Assembly: GCA_017561105.1 (NCBI GenBank)
Contig: JAFZDR010000239.1
Span: 1-13,617, forward strand
DNA length: 13,617 nt
Source of the DNA: Alistipes sp.
GTDB lineage: Bacteria; Bacteroidota; Bacteroidia; Bacteroidales; Rikenellaceae
Reading direction: 5' to 3'
The position numbers were made by a program, and so were the translations under genes. Of this stretch, positions 1 through 13,617 are shown piece after piece (within the stretch, counting starts at the first letter, position 1; each line of letters begins with the position of its first letter). The notes under the pieces were generated by a model, which had not been told where the DNA came from, made no database searches, and worked only from the letters and a program-made list of their open reading frames with translations.

Positions 1-126
1 ACAACCGTTCTCGATGCGTCGAACTTCCACAACTACATCTTCAGCAGTGGCGAGTCGACCGATTGGACCGGCACCGACAACTACGATGGTTGCTCGGTAT
101 TGACAGCAAAACCAACAATTCAGTAA
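1..126 (+). CDS. C-terminal end of a GLUG-repeat-type lipoprotein (5' part outside window)
   Basis: Reading from base 1 gives 41 codons and a TAA stop at 124-126. The peptide holds NFHNYIFSSG followed by TDWTGTDNYDGC. The same cap ends the two complete lipoproteins of this window (NYIYGSG...TDWTGTDNYDSC and FDNIYGG...TDWTGVENYDGC), so this is the tail of a third paralogue immediately upstream. The cap probably closes the beta-helix of a surface lipoprotein; that role is inferred from its position after the repeats. It is followed 19 nt later by a copy of the 38-codon gene, the same arrangement as in cassettes 2 and 3. The size and N-terminus of this protein cannot be seen. Confidence 0.85.
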   Translation, partial: TTVLDASNFHNYIFSSGESTDWTGTDNYDGCSVLTAKPTIQ

Positions 127-145
127 CCCCTAAAAAGCTACAGAG

Positions 146-262
146 ATGAAAAATTATTTGAAACCACAATTTGAGATTTATGAGGTCGTAGCCGAAAAGG
201 GTTATGGCGATAGCGTTCTTCTCCCGGGCTTCGGAGGCGAGAGCGACGAGTTGGTTTACTAA
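146..262 (+). CDS. 38-aa conserved small protein, copy 1 (cassette partner of the lipoprotein)
   Basis: A 38-codon gene starting 19 nt after the lipoprotein stop. It begins MKNYLKPQFEIYEV and ends GYGDSVLLPGFG-GE-SDELVY. It matches copies 2 and 3 at 29 of 38 residues; 7 of the 9 differences fall in the first 18 residues and only 2 in the last 20. In the GYGDSVLLPGFG block the DNA differs from copy 2 at synonymous third positions (GGT/GGC, GTT/GTG, CTT/CTC, CTC/CTT) without changing a residue. That pattern argues that the peptide is translated and under selection. There is no signal peptide or membrane segment; the peptide is acidic and aromatic-ended. It probably shares a transcript with the lipoprotein, because no promoter lies between them and a terminator follows. 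Function unknown. The MKxYxxP opening resembles other short Bacteroidales proteins of unknown role (recalled, not searched). Confidence 0.8.
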   Translation: MKNYLKPQFEIYEVVAEKGYGDSVLLPGFGGESDELVY

Positions 263-265
263 TTA

Positions 266-300
266 GGCTATTAGCCATTGGCTATTGGCCATTAGCTGAA
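266..300 (+). repeat. 7-bp tandem repeat array, copy 1
   Basis: Four successive heptamers of the form RGCYATT (GGCTATT, AGCCATT, GGCTATT, GGCCATT) and a degenerate fifth unit, AGCTGAA. They sit between the small-gene stop and its terminator. Related arrays occupy the same place after copies 2 and 3, but the unit order differs. Because units contain both GGCT and AGCC, the run can also pair with itself weakly. Function unknown. Confidence 0.65.
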
Positions 301-336
301 AAAATCGGGCGGGAAAACTTGCCCGATTTTTTTTTG
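299..336 (+). terminator. Rho-independent terminator of cassette 1
   Basis: Inverted repeat with arms AAAAAATCGGGC (299-310) and GCCCGATTTTTT (321-332), a 10-nt loop GGGAAAACTT, and a T run to 335. The same stem, with a nearly identical loop, ends cassettes 2 and 3. Confidence 0.9.
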
Positions 337-362
337 TTTTGTACAATAATTTCGTATCTTTG
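333..362 (+). promoter_or_regulatory. Promoter of the cassette 2 lipoprotein gene
   Basis: A -7 box TATCTTTG at 355-362 fits the Bacteroidetes consensus TAnnTTTG. A TTTG at 333-336, in the T run of the preceding terminator, gives an 18-bp spacing to it. Transcription would start around 368, leaving a leader of roughly 100 nt. Overlap of terminator and promoter packs the cassettes tightly. Confidence 0.7.
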
Positions 363-388
363 CAACAGATAAAACACCCTTTACCCTT

Positions 389-409
389 CCCGAACAATCG
401 GGGGGGGGG
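389..409 (+). promoter_or_regulatory. Leader hairpin running into a G10 tract
   Basis: CCCGA (389-393), loop ACAA and TCGGG (398-402) form a short stem whose 3' arm is the start of ten consecutive Gs (400-409). It lies in the predicted 5' leader, about 56 nt before the start codon. An equivalent hairpin and G9 tract precede the cassette 3 lipoprotein gene. Homopolymer G tracts of this length often vary in length by slippage, so this could be an expression-variation site; that is inference. Confidence 0.6.
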
Positions 410-465
410 TAATTTGTTTATTATCAACGACTTGCAAGAACTTACATATTAACAACAAAATATCA

Positions 466-3400
466 ATGAAAAATTCGGTAAAACTTTTCTTGGCAGTTGC
501 CGTTTTGTTTGCAGGCTCTGCTTGTACGACAGATGTAACTGAGGACCTTGGCGTAAATGGCTTGGGTCAAACAAAAATTGTTCTCTCGCTCGAGGAGTCG
601 CGTACTCAGCTCGGCGAGAAGGTGGGCGACCTCTACCCCGTTTATTGGAGCGAGGGCGACCAGATTTCGGTTAATGGTGTAGCGTCGAACGCCTTGACTG
701 CCGAGCAGGCAGGTTCGTCGAAGGCTGCATTTACCGTAAACGGCACCCACGACACATTCAACATCGCCTACCCTGCAGCAGAGGCCGATCAGGTACTCTT
801 CGCAGCAACTCAGGCTCACACCTCTAACACCACTTTCGCAAGTGGCGCTGCTACTCTCTATGGTGTAGGCTCGGCAGAGCAGGGCGCTAAGTTGCACCAC
901 CTCACAGGTGTATTGAAGTTTGGCGTGGTTGGTTCGGCAACCTTGAAGAAGGTGCAGATTTCGACTATCGACAACGCCCCTATCGCAGGTGCATTCGATA
1001 TCGACTTCACAACCGGCGAGGTTTCGCCAAGTGCAGCGGCTGTTTCGGCCATTAACTACTCGTTTGGCGAGGGTGTAGCACTCTCGAGTGAGCCAACAGA
1101 TATCCATGTTGCCGTTCCTGCGGGTGTTTACAATGAGTTGTACATCACCTTGTACGACAACAATGGCGGTGTGATGTTCGCAACCGCAAAGGCTGACGAT
1201 GAAAAGCCTCTCTCAGCAGGCAATGTTCGTTCGTTCTCGAAGCACATCGAGTTCGCGCCTATCAACTCATCTGCACACATCATCAGCGAGGCTGCCGACT
1301 TGGTTAAGTTTGCATCGGAGGCTGCTACAACGACTAAGGATGTAGTATTCGTTAATGATATCGATATGTCGGAGGTTGAGTGGACTCCAATCGAGGGTTA
1401 TGCCGGCTCAATCAACGGTAACGGCTACGCAATCAAGGGATTGAAGGCTCCATTGTTCGGCACAACAAATGCAAAGATTAAGGGTTTGCACCTCACCGAG
1501 CTCAATGCAGAGTGGGCAACCTATGCTAAGGCGGGCGCTTTTGCTTCGTACCTTGCTGACGGTGGCGTACTTTCGCACTGCTCGACCGATGGTAAGATTG
1601 TCATCAACAACACAACCTATGCCGAGCCTGTAGTGCGCCAGCAATATGACTTCGTATATGGCGGATTGGTTGGTTTGACCACAGGTGCGACCATCGAGCA
1701 CTGCGAGAACAAGGCTGACATCACCATCACCTCTGTATGTTCGCAGTCGGTAGCAGGCTCTAACTTCTATGGTTTCAGCTTTGGTGGTGTAGTGGGAGCA
1801 GCAGACCTCGTAGAAGGAGGCAACCCGACATCTATCACTCACGCAGTGAATCGTGGAGCAATTCACATCAACAACACAACGGCTCTCTCTCGTGGTTACT
1901 ACTGGATGGGAGGTGTATTCGGTCAGACAATCGCCGATAACAGCCTTTCGGCATTCAGTCACTGCTATAACTATGGTAACATATCGACAAAAAAGGATTG
2001 CTCACTTCCAGCACTCCGACTTGGTGGCGTATTCGGTGACCTTGCAACCAACCAAATCAGCACTTGTGACTTCATTGAGAACCACGGTGACATCTTCGTT
2101 CACGGAGAGGTCGCATCAAATGTAATCCAAGTGTATGGTATTGGCTATACAGCGTATGTCGTAGATGGTGTGAACGACTGTCTTAACACGGGTGATATTG
2201 ACGTACATAGCAATGCTTTGGGCAATATGTATATCTGTGGAGGTATCTTGGGTATTACCGCAAGTAGCGAAACCAAGGGTGTATGCCATCGTATGAAGAA
2301 TGAGGGTAACATCACCTTCGCACCTTACAATGCGTCATCAAAGATGACAGGTACACTCACTGTTGCAGGTTTGACCAACAATCTCAACTGCGGCATCGAG
2401 GGTACAGCCGGCAGTCCTTCGGGCAATAGCGGTGCAATTCGTGTGACCTCCGTAACCCAAAATATAACATACATTGCAGGTGTAGCAAACAATCTTGGCG
2501 AAGGCTTCACCCTCACAAATGTTGAGAATAGCGGCTCTATCACTGTTGACGGAGATGTTACGGGCACGGCAGGCGACATCTATGCGTGTGGTATAGGTGC
2601 AACACTCAAGGCAAACTCAATACTCAACGATGTAAAGAATAGCGGTAGTATAAATGTAGGCGGTAGTGCAAGTCGATATGTAATCACAGCAGGTATCGCT
2701 AACGAGGTGCGTTGCACAATGACCAATGTTTCGAATAGCGCAGATATCAATGTTACGGCCACATCGGGCTCGAATGCCTTTGCTCTCGGTATTGGCCGTT
2801 TGATTTATCTCAGAGCAACCGATGTCTACAATACAGGAGATATCACCTACTCCGGCACTTCGACTGCAGGAGCGATTCAGGTAGCGGGACTCTATGGTAC
2901 ACTCGGCAACAACTCGCTTAGCACAGATGCCGCAAATCCATCGAGCAATAGCGGAACTGTCACCTTCAACGGTAAAGCATTGGATTCAAGCAAGACTGTT
3001 AAGGTTGCTGGATTCTCTGCCATATTGAACTACAGCAAGGGTGTATCGAAACTCTTGAACAAGGGAAATGTTGTATGTGTGGGTATTGCAGAGAATGTTG
3101 CACCAATTCACCTCGGAGGTTTGGCGTGCGATGTCAACCACCCTGCAAGCAACTGCGAGAATAGAGGTACAGTATCGTTCTCGGGTTTAGCAACAGGCAC
3201 TATGTATGCATCGGGTATCGGCGTGACTATGGGCGCAACAGGCACCTTGACCAATGTTACAAATAATGGTAAAATCACCTCGACAGGCTCGCACAATGCC
3301 CAAGTTCGCTTGACAGGTATCATTGGATTAGAGTATGCCGCAGGAACATTGACCGGCGCACGCAACAATGGTGATATCGAGATGAATGGCGAGGTTAAGG

Positions 3401-4314
3401 CAAGTATCGGTATCGCAGGTATCTGGCCGGTAAACCAGAAAGCTGAGACCACATTTATAGACTGCCACAACAGCGGCATTATTTCGGTAATAAGCACAAC
3501 CGAGAATACCAGCTCGAACAATATCGGAGGTTTGGTGGGTTACACTGCCCAAAATATGACTTTCGACGCTTGCTCCAATAGTGGCAAGACGGTTGATGGT
3601 GTCAAGAAGGGCATCTATGTTGACCAGCCTGTAAAGCACGGCTACTTCGATATTGCAGGTTGTGTTGGTTATGTCTACAAGGCGAAGATCACCTTCCTCA
3701 ATGGCTTCACCAATAGCGCAGATATCTATGTCAAGGCCACCAACACCTACGCAGGAACATACCCAGTGGGTGGCGTGTTGGCAGTTTACAACCTGGCAAA
3801 CGCAAGCTATGCAGAGTGGACAGGCACCGTCAAGAATACGGGTAAGATTACCTTCGATGGTGACGCATCGGCAAGCAAGACTCTTGCGGTGGGTGGCATT
3901 ATCGGTATTTCGGGTGCTGTAGATTGCGAGGCTAAACTCGTTAATACTGGCGATATCGTTGTCAAAGACACCGCCAAGATCCCAGCAACAAATGGCTTTG
4001 GAGGTATTATAGGTGTCGCCGGCGGTACTATAAATGGCGCACAGTCCTACTTTACGCTCGAGAAGAATTATGAGATAGCCGCAAATGTAGGCTTCATCAC
4101 CGGCTCGGCTCGTGCAAATGGCTCAGTAGTAGCAAGCAACTGTAAGATTGGTGGCGGTGTGTTAAAGTATGATGAAGCTGACGAGTCTATGAAGGTTGTT
4201 CCATTCACCGAGGGCGACTTCCACAACTACATCTACGGTAGCGGAACAAATACCGATTGGACCGGCACTGACAACTACGACAGTTGTACTCTCCTCTCGG
4301 CTAAGCCGGAATAA
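466..4314 (+). CDS. Giant lipoprotein: fimbrillin-like N-terminus plus GLUG-like beta-helix repeats
   Basis: 1282 residues. Residues 1-19 are a lipoprotein signal peptide ending before Cys20 (FAGSAC), and acidic residues follow in TTDVTEDLG. A surface lipoprotein is likely, given the many surface-exposed Bacteroidetes lipoproteins. Residues about 30-265 resemble Bacteroidales fimbrillin-like (Mfa-type) domains, with ESRTQLG and YPVYWSEGDQISVNG. Near residue 272 begins the usual lead-in to GLUG repeats (EAADLVKFA, then NDIDM, WTPIEGYAGSINGNGYAIKG). From about 310 to 1230 I count some 21 units carrying an N-x-G-x-I type motif (NSGSITVDG, NTGDITYSG, NNGDIEMNG), alternating with GG(I/V)xG segments. 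This is typical of a parallel beta-helix adhesin-like stalk. The C-terminal cap has TDWTGTDNYDSC. The ATG was chosen because the signal peptide follows it directly; no Shine-Dalgarno is visible, as is usual in this phylum. First gene of cassette 2. Ligand and role unknown; adhesion is a guess. Confidence 0.85.
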   Translation: MKNSVKLFLAVAVLFAGSACTTDVTEDLGVNGLGQTKIVLSLEESRTQLGEKVGDLYPVYWSEGDQISVNGVASNALTAEQAGSSKAAFTVNGTHDTFNIAYPAAEADQVLFAATQAHTSNTTFASGAATLYGVGSAEQGAKLHHLTGVLKFGVVGSATLKKVQISTIDNAPIAGAFDIDFTTGEVSPSAAAVSAINYSFGEGVALSSEPTDIHVAVPAGVYNELYITLYDNNGGVMFATAKADDEKPLSAGNVRSFSKHIEFAPINSSAHIISEAADLVKFASEAATTTKDVVFVNDIDMSEVEWTPIEGYAGSINGNGYAIKGLKAPLFGTTNAKIKGLHLTELNAEWATYAKAGAFASYLADGGVLSHCSTDGKIVINNTTYAEPVVRQQYDFVYGGLVGLTTGATIEHCENKADITITSVCSQSVAGSNFYGFSFGGVVGAADLVEGGNPTSITHAVNRGAIHINNTTALSRGYYWMGGVFGQTIADNSLSAFSHCYNYGNISTKKDCSLPALRLGGVFGDLATNQISTCDFIENHGDIFVHGEVASNVIQVYGIGYTAYVVDGVNDCLNTGDIDVHSNALGNMYICGGILGITASSETKGVCHRMKNEGNITFAPYNASSKMTGTLTVAGLTNNLNCGIEGTAGSPSGNSGAIRVTSVTQNITYIAGVANNLGEGFTLTNVENSGSITVDGDVTGTAGDIYACGIGATLKANSILNDVKNSGSINVGGSASRYVITAGIANEVRCTMTNVSNSADINVTATSGSNAFALGIGRLIYLRATDVYNTGDITYSGTSTAGAIQVAGLYGTLGNNSLSTDAANPSSNSGTVTFNGKALDSSKTVKVAGFSAILNYSKGVSKLLNKGNVVCVGIAENVAPIHLGGLACDVNHPASNCENRGTVSFSGLATGTMYASGIGVTMGATGTLTNVTNNGKITSTGSHNAQVRLTGIIGLEYAAGTLTGARNNGDIEMNGEVKASIGIAGIWPVNQKAETTFIDCHNSGIISVISTTENTSSNNIGGLVGYTAQNMTFDACSNSGKTVDGVKKGIYVDQPVKHGYFDIAGCVGYVYKAKITFLNGFTNSADIYVKATNTYAGTYPVGGVLAVYNLANASYAEWTGTVKNTGKITFDGDASASKTLAVGGIIGISGAVDCEAKLVNTGDIVVKDTAKIPATNGFGGIIGVAGGTINGAQSYFTLEKNYEIAANVGFITGSARANGSVVASNCKIGGGVLKYDEADESMKVVPFTEGDFHNYIYGSGTNTDWTGTDNYDSCTLLSAKPE

Positions 4315-4339
4315 GTAAAACCCAAAAACAGTTACGATT

Positions 4340-4456
4340 ATGAAGAATTACACAAAACCTGAATTTGATATTTTCGAGGTAGCTGTCGAGGGCGGCTATG
4401 GCGATAGCGTGCTCCTTCCGGGCTTCGGTTCGGAGAACGACGAGTTGGTTTACTAA
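4340..4456 (+). CDS. 38-aa conserved small protein, copy 2
   Basis: It starts 25 nt after the lipoprotein stop, with a short A-rich gap ending GTTACGATT before the ATG. The product begins MKNYTKPEFDIFEVAVEG and ends GYGDSVLLPGFG-SE-NDELVY. The protein is identical to copy 3, although two adjacent codons differ in four bases (GGT TCG here, GGA AGC in copy 3) and still encode Gly-Ser. That includes a switch between the two serine codon boxes. No signal peptide, cysteine or hydrophobic helix is present. The gene is probably co-transcribed with the lipoprotein from the promoter at 333-362 and ends at the terminator at 4504. A ribosomally made signal or precursor peptide, a chaperone-like partner or a regulator are all possible; nothing here decides between them. 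Confidence 0.82.
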   Translation: MKNYTKPEFDIFEVAVEGGYGDSVLLPGFGSENDELVY

Positions 4457-4458
4457 TT

Positions 4459-4493
4459 AGCTTTTAGCCATTGGCCATTAGCCATTAGCTAAA
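4459..4493 (+). repeat. 7-bp tandem repeat array, copy 2
   Basis: Units AGCTTTT, AGCCATT, GGCCATT, AGCCATT and AGCTAAA lie directly after the small-gene stop. The outer units also give an inverted TTAGCT/AGCTAA pair, so the transcript could fold here just before the terminator hairpin. Confidence 0.65.
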
Positions 4494-4503
4494 GAATAGA
4501 GAG

Positions 4504-4534
4504 AATCGGGCGGGAAAACTTGCCCGATTTTTTT
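4504..4534 (+). terminator. Rho-independent terminator of cassette 2
   Basis: Arms AATCGGGC (4504-4511) and GCCCGATT (4522-4529), a 10-nt loop GGGAAAACTT, then a T run to 4534. It ends the lipoprotein-peptide transcript. Confidence 0.88.
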
Positions 4535-4565
4535 GTGTTTTTTCGATAATTATTTTATACCTTTG
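4532..4565 (+). promoter_or_regulatory. Promoter of the cassette 3 lipoprotein gene
   Basis: A -7 box TACCTTTG at 4558-4565 fits TAnnTTTG. The best upstream box is TTTG at 4532-4535; its 22-bp spacing is a little long. It starts inside the T run of the preceding terminator, as in cassette 2. Predicted start near 4572, leader about 130 nt. Confidence 0.55.
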
Positions 4566-4599
4566 TATAACAAATAATGCAAAGACGACAAAGTACTCT

Positions 4600-4621
4600 C
4601 CCTGAATTTTTCGGGGGGGGG
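4600..4621 (+). promoter_or_regulatory. Leader hairpin running into a G9 tract
   Basis: CCCTGAA (4600-4606), loop TTT and TTCGGGG (4610-4616, one G-U pair) form a stem whose 3' arm is the start of nine Gs (4613-4621). It corresponds to the hairpin and G10 tract of cassette 2 although the surrounding leader has diverged. The tract ends 82 nt before the start codon. Confidence 0.6.
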
Positions 4622-4703
4622 TATTTGGGTTTTAATGCATTGACTATTAGTATTTTACAAGCCCGAAAAGACATTTTAACAAAACTTTCTAAAACTTAAC
4701 ACA

Positions 4704-7700
4704 ATGAAACACCCAACAAAAATTTTCATGGCAGTTGCGGTTTTGTTTGCAAGTTTTGCTTGTACAACAGATGCGACCGAAGACCTCGGAGTAAAAGTTG
4801 GAGGTCAAACAACATTGACAATCTCGTTGGAGGAGTCGCGTACTCAACTTGGCGAGAAGGCTGACGGCGTTTACCCGCTCTACTGGAGCGAGGGCGACCA
4901 GCTCTCTTTGAATGGTGTAACCTCTGCAGCTCTTACTGCCGAGCAGGCGGGCGCAGCCTCTACACAGTTCACCTTCGATGGCGTCATCGGCTACCCTTAC
5001 AACATTATCTACCCTGCAAGCGCTACAAACGAGGTTACCTTCCTCGCTGAGCAAAGCTACGTTGCGGGCACATTCGCAGCTGGTGCTGCGCCGATGTATG
5101 GCTACGCAGCAAGTGCGGGCGATGCTATTCAGATGAACAACCTTGTAGGCGTACTCTGCATTCAGCCTTATGGCGAGGGTATAACCCTTACAAGCGTATC
5201 GGTGAAATCGCAGTCGGGTGCTATTGCAGGTTCTTACACCGTTGATCGCGCAACAGGCGCTTTGACCGCTGTAGCCGACACCACTTCGGACACCGTAACT
5301 ATGTCGCTTGGTGACGAGGGTTTGGCACTTGGTGCAACCCCAACCCCAATCTATATCACCGTTCCTGCAGGTCAGTATGGCCTATTCTCGGTTACACTCA
5401 GCACTGCAACCGACAAGATGGCTCTCTACTTCGATAGTTCATCGAAGCCTATCTCGGCAGGTACCGTTCGTGAGTTCACCCCATTTGTCTATGCAGCAAA
5501 TGTGGCTGAGGGCGAGGAGTTCCTTATTGACAGCGCAGATGCGTTGATTCGCTTTGCTAATATCGCAAACAACTTTGCTCCATACAAGGTGGCTAAGGTT
5601 GTTGCCGATATCGATATGACAGGCAAGAACTGGACTTCGATTGAGGGCTTCGAGTTCGCATTCGATGGCGGCAACTTCGAGATTAAGGGCTTGAATGCAC
5701 CATTGTTTGGTGAGACTATGGCTGCCGAGATTAAGAATGTAAAGTTGGTTGATGTGAATATCACCACCGAGCGCCCCGAGGCAGGAGCGTTGGCTTGTAG
5801 CGTTTTGAACGAAGCAGCCAATATCTCAAACTGCTCTGTAACGGGAAAATTCACTGTTGTAGGTAAGGATGTAGCAGTTCTTCATACAGAGCTTCAGTAT
5901 GGTGCAATGATTGGTTATAGTAGCTCTAAACAGTGCTACAAGAATTTGTACACCAATGTTGCGATAGAGGTTAAAGAGAGCTTTGTCCAGACTGTACAGA
6001 TTGGTAATGCTGTCGGCAACTGTCTCGGCAAGCTCGAGAATGTAACTTGCCACGGTACCATTAACTTTGCCGGAACTGTAGGTGGCAGTAGCAAGCGTCT
6101 CCGCGTCGGTGGTATTGCTGGTCGAGTATATGGAATGAAGAACTGTGTTAATGGCTCGCCTGAGGATGCTACACAGGCTCTCGGTTCCATCACCCTCGGC
6201 GGAGTACGCAAACAAGATACCGAGGTTGGTGGTCTTGCAGTGTATATAATTGGTGCAACAGAGAATTGCCACAACTATGCAAAGCTAACTGCCGGAGGAG
6301 AAGCAGTTAATATATCTGTTGGTGGCCTCTGTCGATATGCCTATTCAAGCACCATTTCGAACTGTTCTAACCACGGTGATATTGTTATGTCATCTAAGAG
6401 TGCACAATGGTATCTCGGAGGTTTGGTTTCGGAGGATGGCTCTTCATCAGGTGGTACATTTGTAAACTGTGCAAATTACGGAACTATAGATATGACCAAA
6501 GAGGCAGTTTCTACATATGTATATGCCGGAGGTTTGATAGGTCGTAAGGCAAAGGATTATGCGACAACTTTCGATAACTGTACCAACGAAGGTGATATCA
6601 AGTTTGCTTGTACCTTGACTTGCGGTATGCGTATCGGAGGCTTGATTGGATATACCGACCAGGCAAAGCTCGTATTGAAGAATAATAATACCAACAAGGG
6701 TAATTTCTTTGCGGAAGGTCAGTGTAAGTACTTAAATTATGGTGGTATCTTTGGTCAGGTGAGCAAAGCATATAGCACAGACTCTTATGGTACTATGACC
6801 AATACAGGTGATATAACTTGTACCACAAAAACATCGGTTAATACTGAATTTATCCGCGCTTCAACTATATTTGGCTACATAAACAATACTACCGATTTGA
6901 GAGATGCCGATATGTTCTATGTCAACACAGGTGATATCTCTGTGATTACCGGACAACCAGACAACGCTATGGTGGGTTCTATCTGCACCTATCGTGTAGG
7001 TCACTTCTCGAATGCACGTAGCTTCTGCAATGTCACAACCGATGCTACCTATGTTGGCTTGATGGCTACAAATACCGATGGCTATCTCTCGAAATATGCT
7101 CACGAGCATTGCTATGTTGGTGGAACTCTTACAAGAAATGGCGTTAAGACCGAGATTACTCGCGACAACTACACCACATTGCTCTACTACAAAGGTATCA
7201 CCGAGGGATCGGACGCTGAGAAAGAGGCCGTTACAAAATACTACAATGGCTATATCTCTTCGATCGATGCTACACCTCAGTACAAGGAGATTGGCGTACT
7301 CGAGATTGCAACAGCTGATGACCTCGCTGCATTTGCTGCAAAGGTTGCTGCCGATGCAACTTGCGCTGACTATGTTAAGGTTACTGCAAATATCGATATG
7401 ACGGGTAAGAGTTGGACTCCAATCGCAGGTTTTGCTGGTATATTCGATGGTGGCAACTTCGAGATTCAGAACTTGGCTGCACCATTGTTCGGTGAGACAA
7501 AATTGATGTCGCTTCAGAACGTCAAGCTCACAGGCGTAAATCTCTCGGCTTCACCTTCGGGCAGCGCAGAGTTTATATATGGCGCAATTGCTAACTACGT
7601 GAACAATGCAAATGCTACTATCGGCAACTGCTCGGCAAGTGGTGAAATTGCTATACATATGACCAGCTCACAGACTGCCCACACTCGAATTGCCGGTCTT

Positions 7701-8903
7701 ATTGGTCGAGCATCTACAACTTATCCTATCTCGGGATTGGAGAATAGCGTAAATGTGACCGTTAGCGGCAATGGTAGCTTTACCGGAAAGGATGTATTCT
7801 TGGCTGGTGTAGTCTCTGAGACTGCGGGTGGATTGACAAAGTGCAAGAACTTCGGTACAATCTCTGCTGCGACATCGCTCTCATCTGCTTACATTTCAGG
7901 TATCGTATCGCGCTCACTTGGCAATGTGATAGCGTGCGAGAATGGCGTTGCGGGCAATAAGGAGATTGGTAAGATTATCTGTAATTGCGATGCTGGATAC
8001 ACAATTTGCGTAGGAGGTATCTATGGCGCATTCGGCGGTAATGCTCCGACAATTGTATCGGATTGCGTAAACTACGCTAATCTCGAGGTTGGCGGTACTC
8101 ACGCTAATAATAAAAAGTATGCGATGATTGGTGGTATCGCTGCTGCACACGAGGTCTTCAAATATGAGTTCTCGAGATGTAAGAACTACGGTGATATCAC
8201 AGTATCCACCGTAAGTGGCACAGACGACGCTACCAACAACTTCTACATCGGTGGAATTTCAACAGGCGGCACAACAAATGTCCTCACTCTCAAGGATCTC
8301 GAGAATCACGGTAATATCCACGTCACAAAGGATGCGGTATTCCCTAAGAATCTCTTAGTTGGCGGTGTTGTGAATGTTGCTATCTCGTCGAGCTACACCT
8401 ACGGCAAGCTCGTCAGCACAGGTAACATCACTATCGAGGGTACCGTGAAGGGTGAGTTGCACTGCGGTGGTGTTGCAGGACGTATTGGCGCTTCGACATT
8501 CGTTGGCCCACTCATCAATACCGGAACAATCAACGTTGACAATATGGTTGAGTTCACGGCCGATAAGTCGTTTGTCGGCGGTATCTCGGGTGTCTTGAAT
8601 GCCGGTTGCAAGATTGTCGATGCTGTAAGCTATTGCGACATCATTGCAAATAAGATTTCGAATGTTGGTTGGATTACCGGTTCGGCACGTGTCGAAGGCT
8701 CTGTGCTCGTTAACAATTGTCAGCTTGGCGGTGCTAAGGTTGCCATAGAGATTGACGAGGAGGATGAGGCTGTAATCGAGAAGAGAGCTCCACTCACAGC
8801 TGAGAACTACTTTGACAACATCTATGGCGGCACAACCGACTGGACAGGCGTTGAGAACTACGACGGTTGTACACTCCTCACAGCAAGTCCCCTCGCACAA
8901 TAA
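4704..8903 (+). CDS. Giant lipoprotein with two fused GLUG-like repeat blocks
   Basis: 1399 residues, paralogue of the protein at 466-4314. The signal peptide ends before Cys20 (FASFAC, then TTDATEDLG). Residues about 30-265 form the same fimbrillin-like domain (ESRTQLG, YPLYWSEGDQLSLNG). The repeat region is built twice. Block A starts near residue 271 (IDSADALIRFA, then ADIDMTGKNWTSIEGF and FDGGNFEIKGL). Block B starts near residue 866 (IATADDLAAFA, then ANIDMTGKSWTPIAGF and FDGGNFEIQNL). Block A ends in a degenerate cap (CYVGGTLTRNG, then RDNYTTLLYYKG) that aligns with the true C-terminal cap (CQLGGAKV, then AENYFDNIYGG and TDWTGVENYDGC). I count about 17 N-x-G-x-I type units in total (NHGDIVMSS, NTGDITCTT, NYGDITVST). 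A surface stalk or adhesin is likely from the architecture; the ligand is unknown. Start chosen because the signal peptide follows it. Confidence 0.85.
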   Translation: MKHPTKIFMAVAVLFASFACTTDATEDLGVKVGGQTTLTISLEESRTQLGEKADGVYPLYWSEGDQLSLNGVTSAALTAEQAGAASTQFTFDGVIGYPYNIIYPASATNEVTFLAEQSYVAGTFAAGAAPMYGYAASAGDAIQMNNLVGVLCIQPYGEGITLTSVSVKSQSGAIAGSYTVDRATGALTAVADTTSDTVTMSLGDEGLALGATPTPIYITVPAGQYGLFSVTLSTATDKMALYFDSSSKPISAGTVREFTPFVYAANVAEGEEFLIDSADALIRFANIANNFAPYKVAKVVADIDMTGKNWTSIEGFEFAFDGGNFEIKGLNAPLFGETMAAEIKNVKLVDVNITTERPEAGALACSVLNEAANISNCSVTGKFTVVGKDVAVLHTELQYGAMIGYSSSKQCYKNLYTNVAIEVKESFVQTVQIGNAVGNCLGKLENVTCHGTINFAGTVGGSSKRLRVGGIAGRVYGMKNCVNGSPEDATQALGSITLGGVRKQDTEVGGLAVYIIGATENCHNYAKLTAGGEAVNISVGGLCRYAYSSTISNCSNHGDIVMSSKSAQWYLGGLVSEDGSSSGGTFVNCANYGTIDMTKEAVSTYVYAGGLIGRKAKDYATTFDNCTNEGDIKFACTLTCGMRIGGLIGYTDQAKLVLKNNNTNKGNFFAEGQCKYLNYGGIFGQVSKAYSTDSYGTMTNTGDITCTTKTSVNTEFIRASTIFGYINNTTDLRDADMFYVNTGDISVITGQPDNAMVGSICTYRVGHFSNARSFCNVTTDATYVGLMATNTDGYLSKYAHEHCYVGGTLTRNGVKTEITRDNYTTLLYYKGITEGSDAEKEAVTKYYNGYISSIDATPQYKEIGVLEIATADDLAAFAAKVAADATCADYVKVTANIDMTGKSWTPIAGFAGIFDGGNFEIQNLAAPLFGETKLMSLQNVKLTGVNLSASPSGSAEFIYGAIANYVNNANATIGNCSASGEIAIHMTSSQTAHTRIAGLIGRASTTYPISGLENSVNVTVSGNGSFTGKDVFLAGVVSETAGGLTKCKNFGTISAATSLSSAYISGIVSRSLGNVIACENGVAGNKEIGKIICNCDAGYTICVGGIYGAFGGNAPTIVSDCVNYANLEVGGTHANNKKYAMIGGIAAAHEVFKYEFSRCKNYGDITVSTVSGTDDATNNFYIGGISTGGTTNVLTLKDLENHGNIHVTKDAVFPKNLLVGGVVNVAISSSYTYGKLVSTGNITIEGTVKGELHCGGVAGRIGASTFVGPLINTGTINVDNMVEFTADKSFVGGISGVLNAGCKIVDAVSYCDIIANKISNVGWITGSARVEGSVLVNNCQLGGAKVAIEIDEEDEAVIEKRAPLTAENYFDNIYGGTTDWTGVENYDGCTLLTASPLAQ

Positions 8904-8921
8904 CCCATAAAAGTTACAATT

Positions 8922-9038
8922 ATGAAGAATTACACAAAACCTGAATTTGATATTTTCGAGGTAGCTGTCGAGGGCGGCTATGGCGATAGCGTGCTCCTTC
9001 CGGGCTTCGGAAGCGAGAACGACGAGTTGGTTTACTAA
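8922..9038 (+). CDS. 38-aa conserved small protein, copy 3
   Basis: It starts 18 nt after the stop of the second giant lipoprotein and encodes exactly the same 38 residues as copy 2 (MKNYTKPEFDIFEV start, NDELVY end). The preceding gap, ending GTTACAATT, resembles that of copy 2. The gene closes the last cassette of the array; nadB follows with its own promoter. As in the other copies, no secretion signal or known domain can be recognised. Function unknown. Persistence of one copy per lipoprotein gene suggests a role tied to that lipoprotein, which is inference from context only. Confidence 0.82.
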   Translation: MKNYTKPEFDIFEVAVEGGYGDSVLLPGFGSENDELVY

Positions 9039-9040
9039 TT

Positions 9041-9075
9041 AGCTTTTAGCCATTGGCCATTAGCCATTAGCTAAA
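9041..9075 (+). repeat. 7-bp tandem repeat array, copy 3
   Basis: Identical in sequence to copy 2: AGCTTTT, AGCCATT, GGCCATT, AGCCATT, AGCTAAA. It lies between the small-gene stop and the terminator. Confidence 0.65.
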
Positions 9076-9085
9076 GAATAGAGAG

Positions 9086-9116
9086 AATCGGGCGAGGAAA
9101 CTTGCCCGATTTTTTT
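9086..9116 (+). terminator. Rho-independent terminator of cassette 3
   Basis: Arms AATCGGGC (9086-9093) and GCCCGATT (9104-9111), loop GAGGAAACTT, T run to 9116. The stem is unchanged from the other cassettes; only loop bases differ. Confidence 0.88.
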
Positions 9117-9164
9117 GTTATGAGAGATAATCACAAATAAAAGTGGAGATTTTTTACAAAACCT

Positions 9165-9223: not shown

Positions 9224-10783
9224 ATGAAGAGTGATTTTTTGGTTATAGGTTCAGGTTCAGCAGGTTTGGGCTTTGCGCTCAAGGTGGCCGACACAGCAAC
9301 CGTAACTCTCGTTACCAAGGGTAAACTCGATTAGTGTAACACCAATTACGCACAGGGCGGTATCTGCTCTGTAACCTACGCCCCCGACACATTCGAAAAG
9401 CATATCGAGGATACAATGATATGCGGTGCAGGCAAGTGCGACCCAAAGGCCGTAGAGCTGGTCGTAAAGAATGCCCCTCGCTCGGCCGAGGATCTAATCC
9501 GCTGGGGAACACGCTTTGATCGTCGCGAGGATGGCGGTTTCGACCTTCACCGCGAGGGAGGCCACTCCGAGCATCGTATTCTCCACTATCAGGACCTCAC
9601 GGGTGCCGAGATTGAGCGCGCTCTTATCGAGCAGGTGCGCAGCCATCCGAACATCACCATTTTGGAGGATCACTTTGCCATCGACCTGCTCACACAGCAC
9701 CACCTCGGCGAGATTGTAACACGCCACACACGCGGTTTGGCTTGTTTCGGTGCCTATATCCTCAACACCAAGACCAACGAGATCTTTACAGCCCTCGCAA
9801 AATTCACAGTTGTGGCAGCGGGCGGTTGCGGTAATATCTACCACACAACCACCAACCCTAAGGTTGCTACAGGCGACGGTATCGCAATGTGCCACCGTGC
9901 AAAGGCTGTAACCGAGAACATGCAGTTTATCCAGTTCCACCCTACTGCGCTCTACCACCCGGGCGAGCGTCCGTCGTTCCTCATTACCGAGGCGATGCGT
10001 GGCTATGGAGCTGTGCTCCGACTCCAAAATGGTCAGGAGTTTATGCACAAGTACCATCCGATGAAGTCACTCGCACCGCGCGATGTTGTGGCTCGCTCGA
10101 TTGACCATGAGCTAAAGATTCGCGGCGAGGAGTTTGTCTATCTCGATGTTACCCATATGCCTGCCGAGGAGACCAAGCACCACTTTCCTAACATCTACGA
10201 GAAGTGTCTTTCGATAGGCATTGACATTACCAAGGATATGATTCCTGTATGCCCTGCAGCGCACTACTGCTGCGGTGGTGTAAAGGTTGATTATAATGGC
10301 GAGAGCTCTATCCGCCGCCTCTATGTCTTGGGCGAGAGCTCGTGTACAGGCCTCCACGGTGCAAACCGTCTGGCATCGAACTCGCTCACCGAGTCGTTCG
10401 TATATTCGGCAGTTGCAGCAGAGCACGCACTCGCAAAGCTCGACAAGGTAGATTTCCAGGAGGGTATTCCTGATTGGGATTTCGAGGGTACAGCCGAGGC
10501 TGAAGAGATGGTACTCGTAATGCAGGATAGAAAGGAGCTTCGCTCGATTATGTCGAACTATGTGGGTATCGTGCGCTCTAACCTCCGTTTGGAGCGTGCA
10601 TTGAAGCGTTTGGCGGTAATTTGGCAGGAAACCGAAGAGCTATACAACCGCACCAAGCCGTGTCGCGAGCTGTGCGAGTTGCGCAATATGATTGCTGTAG
10701 CCTACCTCACAATCAAGCAGGCTCGCGAGTGCAAAGAGTCGGTGGGTCTGCACTACACTATCGACTATCCACCGCAGAAATAG
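9224..10783 (+). pseudogene. nadB: nadB, L-aspartate oxidase, interrupted by an in-frame TAG at codon 37
   Basis: NadB oxidises L-aspartate to iminoaspartate with FAD, the first step of de novo NAD synthesis. The frame from ATG 9224 to TAG 10781-10783 has 519 codons before the final stop, close to the 540 residues of the E. coli enzyme. It holds the FAD motif GSGSAGL (residues 9-15), NYAQGGI, HREGGHS (109-115), FHPTALYHP, LAPRDVVARSIDHE, PAAHYCCGGV and GLHGANRLASNSL. The only defect is TAG at 9332-9334, between KGKLD and CNTNYAQGG. Aligned from memory with E. coli NadB (VTEGSTFYAQGG), this position is Glu, so GAG to TAG is the simplest origin. Restart at ATG 9416 would give 455 residues lacking the FAD-binding N-terminus and would probably be inactive. 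The rest shows no decay, so the mutation is recent, a sequencing error or read through. Good promoter upstream, strong terminator downstream; single-gene unit. Confidence 0.85.
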
Positions 10784-10795
10784 TTAAGTGTTGAG

Positions 10796-12800: not shown

Positions 12801-12834
12801 ATAGAAAAGGGCATCGTTTGATGCCCTTTTCTAT
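12801..12834. terminator. Bidirectional terminator between prfC and the convergent gene
   Basis: Perfect inverted repeat: ATAGAAAAGGGCATC (12801-12815), loop GTTT, GATGCCCTTTTCTAT (12820-12834). A and T blocks flank the GC core on both sides, so it works for both strands. It begins 3 nt after the prfC stop and contains the stop codon of the minus-strand gene (12831-12833). Confidence 0.9.
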
Positions 12835-13617
12835 TTCACCTTAAATTCCGAATCTGCCATGTGCGGTATCGGCTTTGAGCGATAGTAGCCCGACTCGAAC
12901 TTTTTGCGCACAGCCTTGAAGGCGTTGATTGTGTACTCTACATCCGCTATCGTATGGGCTGCGGTAGGTATCACACGCAGAATAATCTCGCCCTTAGGAA
13001 TTACGGGATAGATGACTATCGAGCAGAATACGCCATAGTTCTCGCGCAAATCGACCACCAGGTTGGCGCCCTCCTCCACCCCACCTCTCATATATACAGG
13101 AGTTACGGGCGACTGCGTAACGCCGATATCGAAGCCATTTTCGCGAAATCCCGACTGCAAAGCGCGGGTAATATCCCACAAACGCGCCTGATACTCGGGA
13201 TGGGTGCGGATAAGCTCCAATCGTTTCAATGCGCCGACAACCATTGGCAGTGGCAAGGCCTTGGCGTAGAGCTGCGAGCGCATATTGTAGCGGAAGATAT
13301 TGACAAGCCAGCGCGGAGCCGCCACAAAGGCCCCAATCCCCGCCATCGACTTGGCAAAGGTGTTAAACAAAACATCGACACCCTCGGTTACGCCAAAGTG
13401 TGAGGCTGTACCTCGGCCACCCTCGCCCATAGTGCCAAATCCGTGCGCATCATCGACCAGAAGGCGGAAGTTAAACTCCCTTTTCAGCCCCACGATAACA
13501 TCGAGAAAACCGAGGTCGCCCTTCATGCCGAAGACGCCTTCGGAGATAACCAGAACACCGCCACCCTGTCTGTCGGCGAGGTCGGTGGCGTGGTGCAGCT
13601 GCTTGCGTAGCGACTCC
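12831..13617 (-). CDS. spt: Serine palmitoyltransferase-like alpha-oxoamine synthase, C-terminal part
   Basis: A PLP enzyme of the alpha-oxoamine synthase family (fold type I); the 5' end lies beyond the window. The frame is open from the right edge to TAG at 12831, about 261 codons. An ATG at 13524-13526 is internal: coherent family sequence (VLVISEGVFG) precedes it. Visible motifs are VDDAHGFGTMGEGGRG (PLP-contacting Asp and His), NTFAKSMAGIGAFVA with the Schiff-base Lys, SQLYAKALPLP, and near the end LRENYGVFCSIVIYPVIPKGEIILRVIPTAAH. The DDAHGFG and FAKSMAGIGAF signatures fit the Bacteroidetes serine palmitoyltransferase, which condenses serine with acyl-CoA to start sphingolipid synthesis. 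2-amino-3-ketobutyrate CoA ligase is the main alternative but normally has a D(E/S)SH motif instead. Assignment is from remembered family sequences. Confidence 0.8.
   Translation of the reverse strand, partial: ESLRKQLHHATDLADRQGGGVLVISEGVFGMKGDLGFLDVIVGLKREFNFRLLVDDAHGFGTMGEGGRGTASHFGVTEGVDVLFNTFAKSMAGIGAFVAAPRWLVNIFRYNMRSQLYAKALPLPMVVGALKRLELIRTHPEYQARLWDITRALQSGFRENGFDIGVTQSPVTPVYMRGGVEEGANLVVDLRENYGVFCSIVIYPVIPKGEIILRVIPTAAHTIADVEYTINAFKAVRKKFESGYYRSKPIPHMADSEFKVK

Follow-up and report, generated by a model that had tools for sequence, protein, structure and literature searches.

This study concerns a 38-residue gene that occurs three times in a 13,617-nucleotide stretch of Alistipes sp. 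DNA (contig JAFZDR010000239.1 of GenBank assembly GCA_017561105.1; the whole stretch analysed is called the window), each time 18-25 nt behind a lipoprotein gene. We propose, with a probability of roughly 0.78, that it is the precursor-peptide gene of a Bacteroidales pathway for ribosomally synthesized and post-translationally modified peptides (RiPPs) that resembles the pathway of linear polyphosphorylated peptides (LPPs). According to the accessible parts of the report on LPPs (PMC13381572), these peptides have a leader of the form YxxPxVLxHQxIxFETxxS, a discrete RiPP recognition element (RRE), an NTP transferase and an MsbA-like transporter; an HprK-like kinase phosphorylates Ser3 of the core, and the leader peptidase is an archaeal-type signal peptidase I (SpI). 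LPPs were reported in 2026 as restricted to Bacillota, with a role described in those parts of the source as unknown (PMC13381572). The original prediction, made from the window alone, held that the small and large genes form a functional pair, with the peptide as, for example, a regulator or an assembly partner. The pairing holds and could still be functional, but the leader motif, the co-occurring enzymes and a gene run in an outgroup genome point to a RiPP-type precursor and not to a regulator or assembly partner.

The 38-residue open reading frame (ORF) is a coding gene under purifying selection. The window's own genome, an Alistipes-type metagenome-assembled genome (MAG) that is 69.6% complete, contains 21 copies that are 74 to 100% identical, and the 20 full-length copies comprise 20 different DNA and 18 different protein sequences. 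Across these 20, pN was 0.094 and pS 0.578 (ratio, 0.16), and residues Y4, P7, E17, G19, Y20, D22, S23, P27-G30 and D34-Y38 were invariant. The pN/pS ratio in other genomes was 0.19 (G108, 23 copies), 0.05 (G066, 7 copies), 0.08 (G111, 4 copies), 0.26 (G073, 5 copies), 0.28 (G143, 3 copies) and 0.08 (G128, 3 copies); a value of 1.02 for G145 was discarded because its three matches lie in different registers. Leader-peptide attenuation was rejected as an explanation, because the type I gene (the arrangement behind a giant lipoprotein) lies after the lipoprotein gene and is under selection at the amino acid level. The window peptides gave no match in Pfam or NCBIfam.

The first half of the peptide is leader-like, with the pattern Y-x-x-P-E-[VIF]-E ... 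E-x-G-[FY]-x-x-S. Analysis of five relatives against Pfam and NCBIfam returned only a weak match of one relative to a lasso leader (E 0.13), and it was this match that led to the YxxP motif. YxxP is present in 155 of 156 family peptides, and a Ser follows E-x-G-[FY]-x-x at Y+19 in 151 of 155 (Thr in 3; the exception, from genome G198, has its Ser at Y+18); these counts characterise the family and cannot serve as an independent test, because the peptides were collected with profiles that contain the YxxP and Ser features. The peptides conform to the leader type YxxPx[LVIFA] with a variable C terminus: many genomes carry several copies, and peptides resemble one another within a species and differ from one species to the next, as do the putative cores, which are near-identical within species (GDSVLLPGFGxExDELVY in the window's species).

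Peptide and enzymes stand together in G198, which belongs to another family of the order. Here a family peptide opens a run that continues with genes for an HprK-like protein (287 aa), an SpI (149 aa), a PqqD protein, that is, a discrete RRE (89 aa), an NTP_transf_5 protein (369 aa) and an ABC transporter (546 aa), and this is the gene set of LPPs in one stretch. Two other peptides were found elsewhere in G198, behind large proteins. Within the genus, all 63 SpI-like matches (TIGR02228 at E <= 2e-6, many weaker ones in longer frames being left out) lie directly behind the HprK-like gene, and an ABC transporter gene precedes the kinase gene in 18 of the 20 loci read (none was seen in L335 and L342; MsbA was the best match for one). 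The window's own genome carries transporter and kinase on contig C216, which ends inside the kinase gene, before the expected position of SpI. NTP_transf_5 alone was rejected as a marker: in 20 genus loci its neighbours are mostly what we take to be polysaccharide-type genes, and a PqqD-like gene adjoins it in two of the loci only (L321 and L324). Loci of other Bacteroidales families (L403, L404, L405, L409 and L412) also hold HprK-like, SpI-like and PqqD-like genes in a row, with no recognised family peptide nearby. Machinery of the LPP type may extend more widely through the order and serve other precursors there.

The identity of the enzymes was examined with profiles and structure models. 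The RRE profile matched TfuB1 (6jx3, E 2e-5), PbaB1 (9x90, 4e-3), TbiB1 (5v1u, 0.06) and LppB (9x8z, 0.4), and the RRE model (predicted local distance difference test [pLDDT], 82.5) was closest to the lasso RRE TbiB1, then to FusB1 (likewise a lasso RRE) and PqqD, with a best E-value of 9e-4. N35 and D73 are invariant in 17 of 17 RREs and line up with one Asn and one Asp in LppB, which, by a constant numbering offset, are taken to be N33 and D70. In LppB, the accessible text reports, N33 and D70 bind the Pro and Tyr of the leader (PMC13381572). The kinase model (pLDDT, 87.8) had HprK/P as its best match (E 2e-5), closely followed by phosphoenolpyruvate carboxykinases; scaled to the length of the query, the template modeling scores stayed under 0.5. 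When PDB sequences were searched with a kinase profile, nothing was found. The Ser and His of SpI are kept in 13 of 13 sequences and the Asp in 12 of 13, and the protein scored above the Pfam S24 cut-off and below that of TIGR02228.

In order to relate peptide to machinery, 180 genomes of the genus were searched, and peptide matches were obtained in 132 (profile A1, E <= 1e-3). Counted as both, peptide only, enzyme only and neither, the result was 126/6/11/37 for PqqD (p 2e-22), 122/10/11/37 for HprK (p 1e-19) and 110/22/11/37 for NTP_transf_5. HprK or the discrete RRE is encoded in 130 of the 132 peptide-bearing genomes, and 37 genomes have neither the peptide nor any of the four enzymes searched. 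The totals were 137 of 180 for PqqD (single copy in 131 of the 137), 133 of 180 for HprK (including the window's own genome, where the gene is cut) and 121 of 180 for NTP_transf_5. The same 11 genomes were enzyme positive and peptide negative for both PqqD and HprK. The proposal predicts diverged peptides in these 11, and profile A3 at E <= 0.05 detected such peptides in 8 of the 11 machinery-positive genomes and in 0 of the 37 machinery-free genomes; a lipoprotein-like ORF lies directly downstream in 15 of the 21 diverged-peptide loci read, as judged by eye, and one locus falls short of YxxP by one residue. The pooled table, in which two thresholds are mixed, was 138/2/3/37 (p 2e-32). Among 292 genomes from other families of the order (peptide, E <= 1e-4; HprK, E <= 1e-15), the peptide was found in 6, HprK in 27 and both in 4 (p 8e-4). 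HprK matched at E <= 1e-70 in three of these genomes, and all three were peptide positive.

Several observations weigh against the proposal of an LPP-like precursor. All co-occurrence statistics ignore kinship among genomes, and the 37 negative genomes may come from a small number of lineages. The co-occurrence could then reflect shared ancestry, one lineage of the genus having lost both peptides and enzymes or lacked them from the outset, with no functional link between them. This is very improbable in our estimation, because the link recurs in three other families (G032, G198 and G387), physically so in G198, and because the lead from the leader motif came from the peptides, the enzymes being sought afterwards. 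Individual genomes also depart from the association: none of the four enzymes accompanies the peptides of G091 and G142 (completeness, 75 and 71%), G082, G156 and G192 have enzymes and no peptide that we found, and, outside the family, the peptide-bearing genomes G345 and G418 gave no HprK match. The full LPP consensus is absent, in that HQ and FET are lacking and the Ser spacing is 19 and not 18, and the hidden Markov model scores of the kinase and of SpI (TIGR02228) lie under the curated cut-offs. Searches of the window's own assembly gave no PqqD, NTP_transf_5 or SpI, an absence that is tolerable at its completeness and mildly unfavourable. In the genus loci read, the enzymes are not adjacent to peptide genes, so that the genus precursors would be modified in trans.

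The genus PqqD counts among these points as well, since it occupies a conserved neighbourhood of its own in 18 of 19 loci (L367-L385) and therefore may serve something else. Downstream of it lie genes that we take to encode a His/Cys-rich small protein, a TonB-receptor-like protein and a small metal-binding-domain-like protein. PqqD might thus have a different substrate, or the peptide might be the precursor of a different RiPP class, for example a lasso peptide; the gene for the presumed His/Cys-rich protein beside PqqD, the lasso-type matches of the discrete RRE and the weak lasso leader match of one relative are consistent with this notion. Lasso ring formation requires an acidic residue at positions 7-9, however, and the putative core GDSVLLPGF has none there; neither a macrolactam cyclase nor a B2 peptidase is present among the ORFs of the G198 run, no genome-wide search having been made. 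We therefore regard this alternative as unlikely and retain the LPP-like precursor as the preferred reading.

The one-to-one pairing of the small gene with a large gene was borne out, in that all 21 own copies sit 18-25 nt behind a lipoprotein C terminus, and it generalises to relatives. A layout survey of 101 loci from 32 other genomes, among the matches listed, placed 57 behind a giant lipoprotein (type I) and 29 before another lipoprotein (type II); 4 were both and 11 were left unassigned. Because type II peptides precede another kind of lipoprotein, the partner is a lipoprotein and not one family. Under a stricter adjacency rule, applied to 122 loci of 33 genomes (21 own loci included), 86 had an adjacent complete lipoprotein ORF on the same strand, under a permissive lipobox rule that also admits 36 of the 171 other ORFs at these loci. 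The upstream ORF was cut by a contig end in 27, 4 lay at contig edges and 5 failed; of these last, 3 are own copies behind lipoprotein C-terminal fragments of 68-102 residues, and the other 2 are separated from the same lipoprotein by about 170 and 340 nt. Partner lipoproteins are of several kinds (Mfa_like_1-like, DUF4465 and CotH, with 2 of the 5 scanned uninformative), the Mfa_like_1 resemblance coming from 1 of 4 scanned peptide-preceded lipoproteins at E 3.8e-4, below the cut-off. In the window's own genome, 23 N-terminal matches to the window lipoprotein were found. Nine lipoproteins have a visible 3' end with a peptide behind (C6 twice, C31, C44, C83, C92, C112, C172 and C179), C233 and C244 carry distant lipoproteins with other C termini and no following peptide, and the remaining matches are cut by contig ends. 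A single type II peptide was found in this genome as well, at C242, where a DUF4465 lipoprotein follows it. Those records of close copies that carry a name (37 loci) belong to Alistipes sp. and Rikenellaceae MAGs, several of which come from ruminants, and the relatives listed in the protein collection bear only the name hypothetical protein (16 in one listing; 120 of 163 listed in another).

Constant adjacency and a shared predicted transcript would also suit a peptide that remains unmodified and assists the lipoprotein, as an export or assembly helper or as a regulator, with the enzymes belonging elsewhere, and the C-terminal tail is indeed conserved as well as the N-terminal half. We consider this improbable, given that the same peptide family stands beside different kinds of lipoprotein and on either side of them, that peptide presence tracks the RRE and the kinase, and that the G198 run unites the peptide with the enzymes.

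If the peptide is an LPP-like precursor, the RRE would bind the YxxP leader in trans, the HprK-like kinase would phosphorylate the Ser at Y+19, a signal-peptidase-like protease would cut the leader after G[FY], just before x-x-S, and the MsbA-like transporter would export the core; the NTP transferase might attach one more group. The supply of peptide would be tied to the expression of the partner surface lipoprotein, because each precursor gene is predicted to be transcribed together with a lipoprotein gene. The product would most likely act at or on the cell surface. This is the weakest step, and it is favoured because the visible neighbours of the precursors are lipoprotein genes and the NTP transferase lies mostly by presumed polysaccharide genes. 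The cores, near-identical within species and divergent between them, would fit a species-specific signal, a surface tag or a bacteriocin-like product. More tentatively, and at less than even odds, we envisage a distributed RiPP system in which a single enzyme set would serve dozens of near-identical, species-specific precursors, each in a lipoprotein operon, the phosphorylated peptide being joined to or displayed with the lipoprotein or surface polysaccharide as a species-specific tag or signal. If true, LPP-type modified peptides would exist in a major gut phylum, and RiPP precursors would be scattered and tied to surface-protein genes, a pathway that cluster-based mining would miss; a surface role would be a concrete lead on LPP function, which the discoverers call unknown.

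The closest known system is the LPP system of Paenibacillus alginolyticus (lppAKBSDN), which, as far as the accessible text goes, shares the YxxPx[hydrophobic] leader, the distal Ser, the discrete RRE with its Asn/Asp pair, the HprK-like kinase, the archaeal-type SpI, the NTP transferase, the MsbA-like ABC transporter and, in G198, the layout in one run (PMC13381572). LPPs are from Bacillota (PMC13381572), whereas the present system is from Bacteroidota. Unlike in LPPs, the genus precursors are many, dispersed and by lipoprotein genes, with the enzymes in separate loci, and the leader lacks HQ and FET and has a spacing of 19 (18 in the G198 peptide). Paeninodin-type and other lasso peptides, with their discrete B1 RRE, are alike in RRE fold and leader motif and, in the accessible text, in having tailoring genes for a kinase and an NTP transferase (PMC13381572); they differ in the cyclase and B2 peptidase discussed above. 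The GG-leader RiPPs of Bacteroidales share the host order and short precursor peptides, but their leaders, as the accessible part of the source has it, terminate in GG and go with peptidase-containing transporters (PMC10352776), whereas here YxxP...G[FY]xxS occurs with SpI. Fimbrillins (lipoproteins of the Mfa_like_1/FimA type) have a counterpart in the one partner lipoprotein with a sub-threshold Mfa_like_1 likeness, and no such peptide gene is described with them among the matches listed in open-licence literature. Among the matches listed in that literature on Bacteroidales RiPPs, LPPs, fimbrillins and Alistipes, no such peptide-lipoprotein-RiPP system was found, and a term search of the accessible text of PMC12710340 gave neither "Bacteroid" nor "HprK."

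By ORF reading, the window holds two complete lipoprotein-peptide cassettes and the tail of another, all on the + strand, so that of the three tandem cassettes first described two are complete and one is a partial C-terminal end. The features are as follows.

1..126, + strand: lipoprotein C terminus, GLUG/fimbrillin-like, last 41 codons (frame 1 ORF, 5' open, cut by the window start)
146..262, + strand: 38-residue putative precursor-peptide gene, copy 1 (ORF and genome copy search)
304..335, + strand: terminator-like hairpin and T-run after peptide copy 1 (sequence reading)
400..409, + strand: 10-G run upstream of lipoprotein start (sequence reading)
466..4314, + strand: lipoprotein, 1282 aa, lipobox FAGSAC (ORF; lipobox judged by eye)
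4340..4456, + strand: 38-residue gene, copy 2, leader-like MKNYTKPEFDIFEVAVEGGY and putative core GDSVLLPGFGSENDELVY (border inferred)
4504..4534, + strand: terminator-like hairpin and T-run after peptide copy 2 (sequence reading)
4613..4621, + strand: 9-G run upstream of lipoprotein start (sequence reading)
4704..8903, + strand: lipoprotein, 1399 aa, Peptidase_M26_N match at 1.9e-14 (ORF and Pfam)
8922..9038, + strand: 38-residue gene, copy 3, protein identical to copy 2 (ORF)
9086..9116, + strand: terminator-like hairpin and T-run after peptide copy 3 (sequence reading)

Each cassette has the order lipoprotein, short gap (19, 25 and 18 nt in cassettes 1, 2 and 3), 38-codon gene and terminator-like hairpin. 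A GC hairpin with T-run and a heptamer-like stretch lie 3' of all three peptide genes, the TTAGCCATTGGCCATTAGC stretches at 266-297, 4457-4492 and 9039-9074 following the peptide stops. The unit order originally put forward stands for the lipoprotein, the 18-25 nt gap, the 38-codon gene and the terminator, but the heptamer array was rejected as a constant part of the cassette, being present behind 12 of the 21 genomic peptide copies. A 220-nt block comprising the peptide gene and downstream sequence is repeated at 123, 4317 and 8899 (identity 60%, reference and 95%, respectively). Pfam Glug was below its cut-off in the 1282-aa lipoprotein and not listed for the 1399-aa lipoprotein, and Peptidase_M26_N was above its cut-off in the latter only.

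The G-runs of the window, and one at G000:C112, lie between a promoter-like stretch and the start codon, often facing a C-rich stretch. Of 52 lipoprotein starts, 9 have a run of 8-11 G in the 220 nt ahead of them (3 of the 8 own and 6 of the 44 others), which suggests that some cassettes may be phase-variable, by slippage in the runs. Beyond the cassettes, the gene at 9224-10786, which we take to resemble L-aspartate oxidase, has its reading frame interrupted by an in-frame TAG at 9332-9334, and a minus-strand gene at 12831-13616, cut by the window end, is presumably aminotransferase-like (serine-palmitoyltransferase-like).

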